From Jiella pacifica (lineage in GTDB: Bacteria; Pseudomonadota; Alphaproteobacteria; Rhizobiales; Rhizobiaceae), in assembly GCF_010500815.1 (NCBI RefSeq), contig NZ_JAAAMG010000011.1, positions 1 through 64,000 of the forward strand: a DNA stretch of 64,000 bases. Direction: 5' to 3'. The translations under genes and the position numbers were made by a program. Below, in pieces: positions 39,372-47,521 of this stretch. Under the pieces are notes generated by a model. That model was not told where the DNA came from and did not search any database. It saw only the letters and a list, made by a program, of their open reading frames with translations. The stretch's first letter is position 1. Each line of letters opens with the position of its first letter.

Positions 39372-39671
39372 GGTGATGGTCCCCAATGCGTCTTCGCAGA
39401 AGTCTTCGGATCGATGCAGGACTTCGGACTGCCGGGCGCCGGCGTCAAGCAGGTCGGGGCGTGCCGGATGGTGACGGCCTGTTCGCCGATTGCGCCGAAT
39501 GGCGGCGGTAAAGTCTGCGCCCTTGATCTCGCAGCTGCGAAATGGCATCAGCAGCTGACGCAAGGACCCATTCGATTGGGTGGCTACGCCGGGCGCCCAT
39601 CCCCCGGCCAACTCCAGACCGCCTCGTCCCATCCGATGGGCGATCCGATTTTCCCGCGTGATCATAAAAAC
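39372..39671. other. Divergent gap between LLM oxidoreductase and sulP
   Basis: A 300-base non-coding stretch. I saw no convincing promoter pair, operator symmetry or structured RNA in it. Confidence 0.35.
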
Positions 39672-41153
39672 ATGAACCTTGAAACACTCCGCCACGAGTG
39701 GTTCGGCAACGTGCGTGGAGACCTGCTCTCCGGCCTCGTCGTCGCCCTCGCGCTGATTCCCGAAGCCATCGCCTTTTCCATCATCGCCGGCGTCGATCCG
39801 AAGATCGGCCTCTACGCGTCCTTCTCGATCGCCGTCCTCATCGCCTTCGTCGGCGGCCGGCCCGGCATGATTTCCGCCGCGACGGCAGCGACCGCCGTGC
39901 TGATGGTCACGCTGGTGCGCGAGCACGGCCTCCAATATCTCCTCGCGGCTACGGTGCTCGCCGGGCTTCTGCAGATCGCCGCCGGGTTCCTGAAGCTCGG
40001 CAACGCCATGCAGTTCGTCTCGCGCTCGGTGATGACGGGCTTCGTCAACGCCCTGGCGATCCTGATCTTCATGGCGCAGGTGCCCGAACTGATCGGCGTG
40101 CCGTCGATGACCTATGTGATGGTCGCCCTCGGCCTTGCCATCATCTACCTCTTTCCGCGCATCACCACGGCCGTTCCCTCGCCGCTGATCGCCATCCTCG
40201 TCGTCACGGCGATCTCGCTCGCCTTCGGCATGGATCTGCGGGTCGTCGGCGACATGGGCGAGCTACCCTCGGAACTGCCGGTGTTCCTGCTGCCCGACGT
40301 GCCGTTCAACCTCGAGACGCTGTTGATCATCCTGCCCTATTCAGCGGGCGTCGCTGCGGTTGGCCTGTTGGAATCCCTGATGACGGCGCAGATCGTCGAC
40401 GATCTGACCGACACCGGGTCCGACAAGAACCGCGAATGTGTCGGCCAAGGCATCGCCAACACCGTTACCGGCTTCTTCGGCGGCATGGCCGGCTGCGCGA
40501 TGATCGGCCAGTCGATGATCAACGTGAAGTCCGGCGGGCGCGGGCGTCTGTCGACCTTCGCCGCCGGCATCTTCCTGTTGTTCCTCATTCTCGTCCTCGG
40601 CGATTTCGTCGCCATCATCCCGATGGCGGCGCTCGTCGCGGTGATGATCATGGTGTCGATCGGCACCTTCTCCTGGTCGTCGATCGTCAATCTGCGCAGC
40701 AATCCCCGCCGCTCGTCGGTCGTCATGCTGGCGACGGTGGTGACGGTGGTCTGGACGCACAATCTGGCGATCGGCGTCCTCGTCGGCGTCATGCTGTCGG
40801 GTGTCTTCTTCGCCTCGAAGGTGGCGCAGATCTTCCGGGTCACCTCGACGCTCTCCGAGGACGGGCTGACCCGGACCTACCGCGTCGAAGGCCAGGTCTT
40901 CTTTGCCTCATCGGACAGGTTCGCCTCGGCCTTCGACTTCAAGGAAGCGGTCGAAAAGGTCGTCATCGACGTCACGTCGGCCCATATCTGGGATCTGTCG
41001 GGGGTCGCGGCGCTCGATCGAGCCGTGCTGAAGTTCCGCCGCGAGGGCGCCGAAGTGGAGCTGAAGGGTCTCAACGAGGCGAGCGCGACGATCGTCGACC
41101 GGCTGGCGATCCACGACAAGCCGGGCGCGCTCGACCAGCTCTCGGCGCATTAG
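39672..41153 (+). CDS. SulP family anion transporter
   Basis: The 493-residue protein has about 12-14 hydrophobic segments of the SulP fold, starting [26 protein letters not shown], with the conserved [15 protein letters not shown] region, and a C-terminal STAS-like domain (about 400-493, [20 protein letters not shown]). SulP members carry sulfate, bicarbonate or other anions. No clear ribosome site precedes the ATG. The downstream universal stress gene begins 10 bases after the stop, a pairing seen in several bacteria. Confidence 0.92.
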
Positions 41154-44490: not shown

Positions 44491-45024
44491 TCAGCCGTGG
44501 AACGCCGTCTTCAAAAGGTCGATCTGCTGGCCGACCGGGTTGTTCGCCTCGGTTCCAGGCTCGTCGGGGCCGCCGGTTCCATAGATTTCCCGGTCGAGCA
44601 TGGCGATGCGCCGTTCGAGCTTGATCGCCCGTTCGACGAGGTCGCGGAAGCGCTCCGGCAGTTGGCCATATTGCGGCGACTCCTTTGCCGAGCCGAGACC
44701 TTCCAGGCGCACCTTGACCTTTTCAGCCTCGACCTGGCTGCGCGACATGTCGCCCTGATTGGCCGCGCGTTGCAGCAGCAGCCATGAGGCGACCTGCATC
44801 AGACGCGTGGTCAATCGCATCGATTCGGCGGCATAGAGCGTCGCACCCGCCCGGTCGAGACGCTTCGCCTCGGCCCGGCCCTCGCCGTCGAGATAGCCGG
44901 CCGTCTCGTCGACCATCGCCATGCCCTCGTTGAAGAGCGGCTGAAACGATCGCGAGAACGCCAGGTGCTCGGCGAGCTTGACGGTCCGGTCGTCTTCACG
45001 CGAATCTGTCATCTGAGGTGCCAT
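44491..45024 (-). CDS. DUF1465 family protein
   Basis: The 177-residue helical protein matches DUF1465, a family almost confined to alphaproteobacteria: FNEGMAMVDETAGYLDGEGR, then YAAESMRLTTRLMQVASWLLLQRA and a C-terminal helix RFRDLVERAIKLERRIAMLD. The role is not established. It is preceded by the palindrome at 45149-45162 and lies downstream of the candidate sRNA on the same strand. Convergent with cobQ (96-base gap). Confidence 0.85.
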   Translation of the reverse strand: MAPQMTDSREDDRTVKLAEHLAFSRSFQPLFNEGMAMVDETAGYLDGEGRAEAKRLDRAGATLYAAESMRLTTRLMQVASWLLLQRAANQGDMSRSQVEAEKVKVRLEGLGSAKESPQYGQLPERFRDLVERAIKLERRIAMLDREIYGTGGPDEPGTEANNPVGQQIDLLKTAFHG

Positions 45025-45148: not shown

Positions 45149-45162
45149 TTAACCTCGGTTAA
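45149..45162. promoter_or_regulatory. TTAACC palindrome upstream of DUF1465
   Basis: TTAACCTCGGTTAA is an inverted repeat with a 2-base centre, 125 bases before the DUF1465 start. It resembles a CtrA-type site (two TTAA elements) but the spacing is 6 rather than the usual 7 bases, so a CtrA assignment is only a possibility. Confidence 0.4.
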
Positions 45163-45185: not shown

Positions 45186-45214
45186 AAAAAAAAGAGCCGT
45201 TGGAAAACGGCTCT
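45186..45214 (-). terminator. Intrinsic terminator on the minus strand
   Basis: Read on the minus strand this is a 9-bp stem AGAGCCGTT/AACGGCTCT with a TTCC loop followed immediately by eight T residues. It is a textbook rho-independent terminator. The nearest minus-strand gene upstream would be antisense to the quinone oxidoreductase, so it must end an independent short transcript. Confidence 0.88.
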
Positions 45215-45305
45215 CAGGAGTTTCAACAGGGAGGCGTCAGACGGTGCGGAAAACCGCGCCGCCTATCCAGCGAACTGGACTGAATTCAGTGATACCTTCG
45301 AAACC
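45186..45305 (-). ncRNA. Candidate trans-acting small RNA (anti-Shine-Dalgarno type)
   Basis: On the minus strand a hairpin at 45242-45261 (8-bp stem with a UUUU loop) is followed by an unstructured linker containing CGCCUCCC and AAACUCCUG, and then by the intrinsic terminator at 45186-45214. This layout, about 100-120 nucleotides with exposed CU-rich anti-ribosome-site motifs, is typical of alphaproteobacterial trans-acting sRNAs such as the suhB/EcpR1 group; membership in that family was not tested. The 5' end is approximate since no promoter was clearly identified. The two CU-rich boxes could pair with GGAGG sites of mRNAs. Confidence 0.6.
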
Positions 45306-45412
45306 TTACCCAGCCCTTAACGGCAGCTTCTCATCGCAAGAATTCCTCTACCTTTGGTTCGGCGGGCCGGGATTTGAGGCTTGAAGGCAAGCGAGACGAA
45401 AGAGGATCGGAC

Positions 45413-46420
45413 ATGGTGGCGGACCGTGAAATGCGCGTTGTGGAAATCGGCGAGCCAGGCGGACCAGAGGCGCTGCGCATCGCCAAGCGCGACGTGCCGA
45501 CACCGGGCGAAGGTGAGATCCTGATCGAAGTCGGTGCCGCGGGCGTCAACCGGCCCGACGTCATGCAGCGCCAGGGCCTTTACCCCCCGCCCCCCGGCGC
45601 CCCCGAATGGCCCGGCCTGGAAGTCGCGGGCCGCGTCGCGAGGCTCGGCGACGGGGCAACGCGTTTTTCCGAAGGCGATCGGGTCATGGCCCTCGTTGCC
45701 GGCGGCGGCTACGCCGACTTCGTCGTGGTGGCAGAAGCCAACGCCCTGATGGTGCCCACGGCGCTGAGCCTCGTCGAAGCAGCCGGCTTTCCGGAGACCT
45801 TCTTCACCGTCTGGCACAACGTCTTCCAGCGCGGCGGCCTGAAGGCCGGCGAGACGTTCCTCGTCCATGGCGGAACGTCGGGTATCGGCACGACGGCGAT
45901 CCAGCTGGCTCATGCCTTCGGAGCGAGAGTCTTCGCGACGGCCGGCAGCGACGACAAGTGCCGCGCCGCCGAACGGCTCGGCGCGGACGGCTGCATCAAC
46001 TACAAGGACGCCGACTTCGTCGCAGCGTTGAAGGAGGCGACCGGCGGCAAGGGCATCGACATTACCCTCGACATGATCGGGGGGGACTACGCCGCCCGCA
46101 ACGTCGAAGTGGCGGCGGAAGATGGCAGGATCGTCCAGATCGCAGTCCAGAAAGGTGCCAAGGCCGAAATCGACCTGTTCAAGATCATGCGCAAGCGGCT
46201 GACGCTCACCGGCTCGACGCTGCGCAACCGGCCGGTCGAATTCAAGGCACAAATCGCCGAGGAACTCTCCACGCACGTCCTGCCTTTGATCGAGAGCGGC
46301 AAGGTCAAGCCGCTGATCGACCGGACCTACCCGTTGGGAGCGGCAGCCGATGCCCACCGACACATGGACGACGACCATATCGGCAAGATCGTCCTGACCA
46401 CCGGGCGCGGCGACGCCTAG
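45413..46420 (+). CDS. NAD(P)H-quinone oxidoreductase (PIG3/zeta-crystallin type)
   Basis: The 335-residue protein is a zinc-free medium-chain dehydrogenase: EVGAAGVNRPDVMQRQGLYPPPPG, PGLEVAGRV, the nucleotide motif VHGGTSGIGTTAIQLAHAFGA, and a C-terminal PLIDRTYPLG...AHRHMDDDHIGKIVLT end. PPPPGAP and the overall pattern fit the PIG3/TP53I3-like branch. It reduces quinones with NADPH. ATG 45413 has AGAGGA 6 bases upstream; the frame is open further upstream but without a site. Confidence 0.9.
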   Translation: MVADREMRVVEIGEPGGPEALRIAKRDVPTPGEGEILIEVGAAGVNRPDVMQRQGLYPPPPGAPEWPGLEVAGRVARLGDGATRFSEGDRVMALVAGGGYADFVVVAEANALMVPTALSLVEAAGFPETFFTVWHNVFQRGGLKAGETFLVHGGTSGIGTTAIQLAHAFGARVFATAGSDDKCRAAERLGADGCINYKDADFVAALKEATGGKGIDITLDMIGGDYAARNVEVAAEDGRIVQIAVQKGAKAEIDLFKIMRKRLTLTGSTLRNRPVEFKAQIAEELSTHVLPLIESGKVKPLIDRTYPLGAAADAHRHMDDDHIGKIVLTTGRGDA

Positions 46421-46813: not shown

Positions 46814-47521
46814 ATGGCCCAGCAATTGTTGATGCCGAAGGCGACCGCCGTCTGGCTGGTCGACAATACCTCGCTCTCCTTCGAGCAGATCGCCGACTTC
46901 TGCACCATGCACCCGCTCGAGGTGAAGGCGATTGCCGACGGAGAATCCGCGCAGGGCATCAAGGGCCTCGATCCGATCATGACCGGCCAGCTTAATCGCG
47001 ACGAGATCGAGCGCGGCGAGAAGGACATCAAGCACAAGCTGAAGCTGGCGCCGCCGAAGGTCCGGGTGCCCGAATCGAAGCGCAAGGGCCCGCGCTACAC
47101 GCCGGTTTCCAAGCGCCAGGACCGGCCGAACGCCATCCTCTGGCTGGTGCGCAACCATCCCGAACTCAAGGACGCGCAGATCTCGCGTCTCGTCGGCACG
47201 ACCAAGAACACCATCGAGCAGATCCGCGAACGCACCCACTGGAACTCGGCCAATCTGACGCCGATGGACCCGGTCACCCTCGGCCTCTGCTCGCAGATCG
47301 ATCTCGATCTGGAGGTCGAGAAGGCGACGCGGGACATGCCGCCGCGCGCCGAGGACCTCGCCGAGGAAGAGCGCCTTCTCTCCGCCGCTCAGACCCAGAA
47401 CTGGTCGCCGCTGGAGCGCTCGTCCAACGAAGACGACGAAATCGACGAGGCCGCGGTCTTCGCCAAGCTCTCCTCCATGCGCCGCGAGGAGCCGGAAGAG
47501 GACGAGGACGACCGGCGCTGA
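46814..47521 (+). CDS. trcR: Cell-cycle transcriptional regulator TrcR (DUF1013)
   Basis: The 235-residue protein is a full DUF1013 member: MPKATAVWLVDNTSLSFEQIADFC, then PRYTPVSKRQDRPNAILWLVRNHPEL and ISRLVGTTKNTIEQIRERTHWN, with two HTH-like segments and an acidic tail. In alphaproteobacteria this conserved, usually essential protein associates with RNA polymerase and the cell-cycle programme. AGGAGG lies 9 bases upstream. It is monocistronic with its own promoter and terminator. Confidence 0.93.
   Translation: MAQQLLMPKATAVWLVDNTSLSFEQIADFCTMHPLEVKAIADGESAQGIKGLDPIMTGQLNRDEIERGEKDIKHKLKLAPPKVRVPESKRKGPRYTPVSKRQDRPNAILWLVRNHPELKDAQISRLVGTTKNTIEQIRERTHWNSANLTPMDPVTLGLCSQIDLDLEVEKATRDMPPRAEDLAEEERLLSAAQTQNWSPLERSSNEDDEIDEAAVFAKLSSMRREEPEEDEDDRR

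Follow-up and report, generated by a model that had tools for sequence, protein, structure and literature searches.

The element described here lies on the minus strand of a 64,000-nucleotide stretch of DNA from Jiella pacifica (hereafter the window), in the gap between two genes identified by protein matches (Table 1). Downstream and co-directional is a homologue of rcdA, a DUF1465 gene, whose start lies 162 nt beyond the RNA; upstream is a divergent zinc-type quinone oxidoreductase gene, followed by a gene for TrcR, which Pfam names transcriptional cell cycle regulator. A first-pass annotation of this DNA had placed an orphan small RNA (sRNA) between the DUF1465 and quinone oxidoreductase genes, with no minus-strand gene upstream of it, and the neighbours identified here bear this out. 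The identity of the downstream gene as rcdA and the CtrA-type site ahead of the RNA were absent from that annotation. In alphaproteobacteria, the cell cycle is under the master regulator CtrA. RcdA takes part in the proteolysis of CtrA by ClpXP, according to the available portions of three papers (PMC8959179, PMC4433202, PMC2877005).

Table 1. Features in and around the gap between the rcdA and oxidoreductase genes (window coordinates).
Feature	Position	Strand	Basis
rcdA homologue (DUF1465)	44491..45024	-	Pfam DUF1465, E 5.5e-53; PDB 3ctw (RcdA), E 1.5e-30
TTAACCGAGGTTAA, TTAA repeat with 6-nt spacing	45149..45162	-	lies in the gap that contains a second, perfect CtrA site before rcdA in many Rhizobiaceae relatives
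Intrinsic terminator, eight U	45186..45215	-	stem and U run; covariation
Predicted sRNA transcript, BjrC1505 family, ~96 nt	45187..45282	-	RF02356 and R1 matches
Single-stranded linker GACGCCUCCCUGUUGAAACUCCU, putative anti-ribosome-site core	45216..45238	-	96-nt fold; conservation
Hairpin 2, UUUU loop, diverged in the window's lineage	45239..45264	-	fold and alignment
Hairpin 1 (GUCCAG UUCG CUGGAU)	45265..45280	-	fold; the family's first stem covaries
-10-like hexamer TATCAC (putative)	45289..45294	-	inferred from majority letters in 115 loci
CtrA-type site TTAAGGGCTGGGTAA (TTAA-N7-TTAA, one mismatch: TTAA-N7-GTAA)	45306..45320	-	motif scan
Zinc-type quinone oxidoreductase, divergent neighbour	45413..46420	+	Pfam ADH_zinc_N, ADH_N
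TrcR, beyond the oxidoreductase	46814..47521	+	PF06242, E 1.1e-67

Folded from its predicted start, the 96-nt transcript reaches -39.5 kcal/mol (z -4.45), which was equalled by 1 of 200 shuffles; a 142-nt fold that includes the promoter part gives z -3.28 and leaves the linker partly paired. The linker contains GCCUCCCUGUU and CUCC, and both are unpaired in the 96-nt minimum-energy fold, as expected from the exposed anti-ribosome-site motifs that the first-pass annotation had described. The textbook intrinsic terminator that it reported on the minus strand is also present, with ten stem pairs counted at 45215-45192 where it had given nine; five of the pairs are G-C, the loop is of 4 nt, and eight T follow to 45186. 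The terminator pattern alone is not rare: between positions 40000 and 50000 a scan counted 8 sites, where 5.9 (sd 2.3) would be expected. The second hairpin, formerly put at 45242-45261, is better drawn as 45264-45239, and a further hairpin (45280-45265) has to be added to the inventory.

The Rfam family BjrC1505 (RF02356) matches 45327-45187 on the minus strand over the full length of its model (1-140), with 50.3 bits and an E-value of 1.8e-6 in the 64-kb window. This is 0.3 bits above the gathering score of 50, the Rfam limit for membership, so that the scan with Rfam covariance models suggested in the first-pass annotation did name a family. The match is one of two that the gathering scan of the window returned, and the only RF02356 match in the source genome. 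On the plus strand, at 39561-39613, the window also contains a riboswitch-type sul1 RNA (RF03058; 54.8 bits against a cut-off of 36.2).

The family is widely distributed. Of 150 genomes sampled from the order, 129 have an RF02356 match at E<=0.01, in 108 of them above the cut-off; none of 14 control genomes has one. Within the window's family, 92 of 101 genomes were matched at E<=0.1, 57 of them above the cut-off, and 1 of the 14 controls was matched at this lax limit; seven of the nine family genomes that lack a match are 2.0 Mb or smaller. The order scan gave 134 places, from which 129 loci in 127 genomes were fetched (those of G037 and G089 and the second copies in G024, G049 and G119 are not among them). 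The filter was passed by 119 of the loci; 88 were aligned, and the other 31 were omitted by eye, mainly as near-duplicates. On a structure drawn by hand from the 88 aligned rows, which comprises hairpin 1 (helices 1 and 2), hairpin 2 and the terminator, 16 of 20 base pairs change on both sides and 95.2% of cells pair; none of 500 shuffles reaches any of five measures, and slid structures pair in 35-52%. The linker core is near-invariant in the same alignment. Its GCCUCC(C) motif, found in 118 of the 129 loci, has a mean unpaired probability of 0.86 (below 0.5 at two loci, 0.88 in the window). The comparison across Hyphomicrobiales that the first-pass annotation had also proposed supports its reading as an sRNA, in the hairpins as well as in the linker.

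The commonest hairpin 2 across the order is GAGUGG CUCCUGU CCACUC. The window lacks this form: its stem is a different one with UUUU as the loop, and the CUCCUG is lost, with the linker kept. Other BjrC1505 members also vary at hairpin 2, so the window RNA is a variant and is not thereby excluded from the family. Judged by its sequence and fold, the window element is a divergent member of the known sRNA family BjrC1505; its expression and its control by CtrA are predictions. At three loci of one genus in the window's family (L158, L160 and L170, in G136, G069 and G105), the hairpin-2 loop reads UUGGAG instead of CUCCUGU, which puts GGAG where other members carry CUCC.

A second covariance model, R1, was built from the 88 sequences, the window included, on the same hand-drawn structure; it describes the transcript alone and is promoter-free. 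Its sole match at E<=1 in the source genome is 45282-45187, with 70.3 bits, a score obtained with the window in the training set (n=88). RF02356 has no match in 21 genomes of the order; rcdA is also absent in 9 of them and present in 12, implying that the RNA and rcdA tend to be lost together. R1 recovered the RNA upstream of rcdA in four of these 12 (L072, L105, L098 and L106; E<=6e-5) and gave weak matches in three (L099, L100 and L101; E 0.007-0.03) and none in five. Beyond the order, 19 of 140 sampled genomes were matched.

The full CtrA motif is TTAA-N7-TTAA, as stated in the available text of PMC4287350. In the window, TTAAGGGCTGGGTAA is the sole site with at most one mismatch on its strand between rcdA and the oxidoreductase gene; over all 64 kb, the minus strand has three such sites, none of them perfect. 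In 121 of the 129 RF02356 loci (those that pass a length filter), the first 44 nt of the match have a mean z of -0.37, against -4.92 for the remainder, of which 97.5% lie below -2. This 5' part of the Rfam model behaves as promoter rather than as RNA, and the model appears to start about 44 nt early. Counted from the start of the box, positions 26-31 in 115 loci most often read T, A, T, A/T, A and T (47-69% each; at the fourth, A equals T at 33%), an AT-rich -10-like hexamer 11 nt past the second TTAA. The box itself is perfect in 46 of the 129 loci and has one mismatch in 70, which makes 116 within one mismatch and 13 without, where dinucleotide shuffles lead one to expect 1.4 perfect and 14.8 within one mismatch. 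Alternative spacers of 3-12 nt give 0-6 perfect sites and 15-45 within one mismatch in the same loci. The box starts 5-10 nt into the RF02356 match in 91 of the 116.

Because RF02356 spans the box positions, these counts are partly circular, and the box was retested with the promoter-free R1 in named loci chosen by their RcdA protein. The sample, the best 80 of 575 relatives, consists of close kin, so that its counts are not independent events. R1 found the RNA upstream of rcdA in 78 of these best 80 of 575 loci, all except L233 and L265. Of the 78 loci, 57 have a perfect box and 76 have one within one mismatch; in 72 of these 76 it starts 36-38 nt ahead of the RNA. Three of four control windows in the same 78 loci give no box; the fourth (+110 to +135), which lies over a second box, gives 26. 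Counted from the terminator, the first box is within one mismatch in 72 of the best 80 of 575 loci; this differs from 76 of 78 because the anchors differ, one being the terminator text and the other the RNA model. A second perfect N7 box stands between the terminator and rcdA in 69 of these 80. In L233 only the second box was found, with the RNA unmatched by R1, and in Aureimonas altamirensis (L265), which has no RNA match, the 600 nt before rcdA hold no box within one mismatch.

Within the best 80 of 575, a set that may leave out records from genomes very close to the window's own, the nearest named RcdA relatives are those of Fulvimarina sp. NAT173 (85%) and Aurantimonas aggregata (78%). Five of the six closest named relatives (L220, L221, L223, L224 and L225) carry a first box with one mismatch, and the sixth, L222, carries one with two; an N7 second box within one mismatch was not found in the window's close-relative group. 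CtrA control is therefore well supported in relatives and only probable in the window, where the box mismatch and the lost CUCCUG loop make it less certain.

The linkage of the RNA to rcdA is close. The gene lies on the same strand less than 900 nt downstream in 117 of the 129 RF02356 loci and 1179 nt downstream in one more, and the oxidoreductase gene is upstream in most of them. The RNA is also kept where rcdA was not detected, at six loci in five genomes of the order (twice in G017, and in G131, G050, G121 and G120); all six boxes are within one mismatch and three are perfect. Outside the order, two RNA copies occur in G150, in which rcdA was not found; their boxes are perfect and lie 41 and 55 nt before the match. 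In G190, a copy that also has a perfect box is separated from rcdA by about 41 kb. The second copy in G097 (L213) has no box. A box within one mismatch is missing from 7 of the 21 class hits besides the window; five of the 7 belong to another RNA type. The viral contigs checked for RcdA relatives yielded no confirmed one.

Some side observations were made at these loci. The two BjrC1505 copies of G017 (L177 and L214), which have perfect CtrA boxes and no detected rcdA, show drift at the end of the linker, in CCCUGUU. L374, L375, L376, L380 and L385 carry an sRNA of another type, with the hairpin ACGUCUCCCAGACGU or near variants of it, then GAAGCCUCCCUG and a terminator, and no CtrA box. In G243, an alphaR8 (suhB) match of 57 bits (L361, contig C10, 876-949) lies about 1.2 kb upstream of rcdA.

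Published work on Sinorhizobium meliloti bears on this arrangement. ChIP-seq showed that CtrA binds the rcdA promoter region in this species, and depletion of CtrA left rcdA unchanged, according to the available part of PMC4433202, in the main text of which the terms sRNA, small RNA and non-coding do not occur. CtrA sites before rcdA were described previously and assigned to rcdA (passages of PMC3616915 and PMC2877005), and a start site was not classed as that of an sRNA when a co-directional start codon lay within 300 nt (passages of PMC3616915). For agrobacteria, the accessible text of PMC10469942 describes multiple start sites for rcdA, with a CtrA site at a greater upstream distance than the one in Caulobacter. 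In S. meliloti Ak57 (L112), the gap opens with a perfect box, followed by a diverged RNA and a terminator; another perfect box then precedes rcdA. The RNA, matched by R1 with 43.5 bits (E 6.9e-7) and by RF02356 with only 27.2 bits, starts 276 nt before the rcdA start codon. An overlooked sRNA promoter is a candidate that would fit the published data from S. meliloti and agrobacteria, although Ak57 is not the strain of those papers and the second CtrA site, nearer rcdA, means that the sRNA promoter is not the sole explanation. The Ak57 record (CP090106.1, 3077883-3084368) is titled plasmid pSymB; at 3.7 Mb, with rcdA and rpmE, it looks like a mislabelled chromosome.

The RNA might instead be the 5' leader or attenuator of rcdA, made as part of one CtrA-driven transcript that the hairpin ends in most cases and that yields rcdA mRNA by read-through. 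The common strand, the short distance in the window and in 117 of 129 loci, the concurrent absence of rcdA from 9 of the 21 order genomes that lack RF02356, and the CtrA sites and multiple start sites credited to rcdA in the available parts of PMC3616915, PMC2877005 and PMC10469942 are all as a leader would predict. The persistence of RNA and box without rcdA in the order and in G150, and far from it in G190, argues otherwise, as does the second perfect box in 69 of the best 80 of 575 named loci, which gives rcdA a candidate promoter of its own. The RNA is probably not only an rcdA leader, and we regard that explanation as unlikely. A little less likely again is a family sRNA whose TTAA sites are ordinary promoter sequence or serve another regulator, with no control by CtrA. 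The mismatch in the window and the 13 loci without a box are in keeping with it; in the open literature that was searched, no passage found mentions CtrA dependence of BjrC1505. It does not predict that the N7 spacing should stand out among spacers of 3-12 nt, that 72 of 76 boxes in the best 80 of 575 loci should lie 36-38 nt before the RNA, or that CtrA should be found by ChIP-seq at the S. meliloti rcdA promoter region (available part of PMC4433202), which is where the RNA lies in Ak57.

The first-pass annotation was right to see an alphaproteobacterial sRNA with an exposed linker and a terminator, but its tentative assignment to the suhB/EcpR1 group fails. A CCUCCCU core is common to the window RNA and the alphaR8/MmgR (suhB) and SorY/SorX families, and both models match it weakly, suhB (RF00519; MmgR/alphaR8) with 24.1 bits and SorY with 30.0 bits. 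These scores are far under the cut-offs of 41 and 111, and the genome has its own suhB/MmgR copy (L092; G000:C56:60348-60426, 65.3 bits, above the cut-off), at which R1 finds nothing at E<=1, so that membership in either family is very improbable. In a class-wide SorY scan, the RNAs upstream of rcdA in G206, G261 and G286 fit R1 better, and that in G243 is alphaR8. EcpR1 adjoins rpmG and has two stem-loops, according to extracts from PMC12403871, unlike the window RNA with its rcdA and oxidoreductase neighbours; no family named EcpR1 was among the Rfam matches up to E 1 in the stretch, and Rfam may hold no EcpR1 model. The locus could, finally, be a bare terminator or chance hairpin with no expressed RNA, given that nearby terminators are about as numerous as chance predicts and that the sRNA is known from sequence; covariation and conservation render this almost inconceivable.

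We therefore consider it likely that the element is a CtrA-linked, trans-acting BjrC1505-type sRNA that blocks ribosome sites and has a promoter to itself. An sRNA of about 96 nt would be transcribed from a promoter whose CtrA site, present across Hyphomicrobiales and in some genomes outside the order, usually lies 36-38 nt ahead of the RNA and through which phosphorylated CtrA would most likely activate it in a cell-cycle-dependent manner. Transcription would stop at the U run of its own terminator, and Hfq binding is probable by analogy. The exposed GACGCCUCCCUGUU linker would then pair in trans with ribosome-binding sites of the GGGAGG type, and translation would be blocked. Caulobacter SisA, which represses its targets via a 10-mer (available text of PMC12559287), is the model for this linker mechanism. 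Computation shows the family match, the covariation, the open linker, the near-fixed box distance, the rcdA linkage and, in several genomes, the persistence without rcdA; transcription, activation by CtrA, repression, the identity of targets and the -10 element are inferred.

A scan of the own genome found CAGGGAGG-N2-12-ATG at 37 sites and the pattern in reverse at 4, an excess that may only reflect strong ribosome sites. Of 30 such sites that were fetched, 21 precede open frames of at least 100 aa and 9 precede frames below 60 aa. Among 10 hand-picked from the 30, Pfam identified four solute-binding or NMT1-like proteins (L347, L351, L335 and L352). Solute-binding genes at CAGGGAGG sites are a lead suggested by sequence, not a target list.

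In a broader and more tentative proposal, which we hold to be possible though somewhat doubtful, BjrC1505 would be an RNA arm of the CtrA circuit, perhaps older than Hyphomicrobiales, and the CtrA site credited to rcdA would really, or also, be the promoter of the RNA. The RNA would be made when CtrA is active and would repress mRNAs whose GGGAGG sites are strong, for instance those for solute uptake, so that division would be linked to nutrient uptake. The RNA promoter would then help to explain why CtrA binds in S. meliloti with no response of rcdA mRNA, and start-site maps would have filed the RNA as an rcdA leader, since fewer than 300 nt separate its start from rcdA there. This puzzle becomes testable, with BjrC1505 as a candidate explanation. 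What is new here is the conserved CtrA-type promoter and the linkage to rcdA, by which an orphan family gains a testable place in the cell-cycle circuit; with a conserved sRNA behind a CtrA-site promoter, the circuit would have an additional, widespread output in the form of RNA.

Several known systems resemble the one proposed. The alphaR8 RNAs (MmgR, SisA-D) are likewise short sRNAs with an anti-Shine-Dalgarno core, but they have other hairpins and mostly adjoin an N-formylglutamate amidohydrolase gene (available text of PMC12559287). SorY and SorX of Rhodobacter share the CCUCCCUGUU linker and terminator; in G171, the 120 nt ahead of the SorY- and SorX-type matches contain no CtrA box with one mismatch or fewer. 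EcpR1 of S. meliloti is a rhizobial sRNA that acts on cell-cycle genes and pairs via a stem-loop (parts of PMC7143759). CcnA of Caulobacter, an ncRNA with a CtrA box in its promoter, is tied to the CtrA circuit, as is proposed here, but it is 182 nt long and lies at the replication origin (parts of PMC8959179). BjrC1505 itself agrees with the window RNA in the full-length match, the linker, the terminator and the place beside rcdA, and differs from it in hairpin 2, which is replaced in the window with loss of the CUCCUG loop. Work attributed to Madhugiri in 2012 is said to have found BjrC1505 expressed in Bradyrhizobium, at a lower level in nodules.
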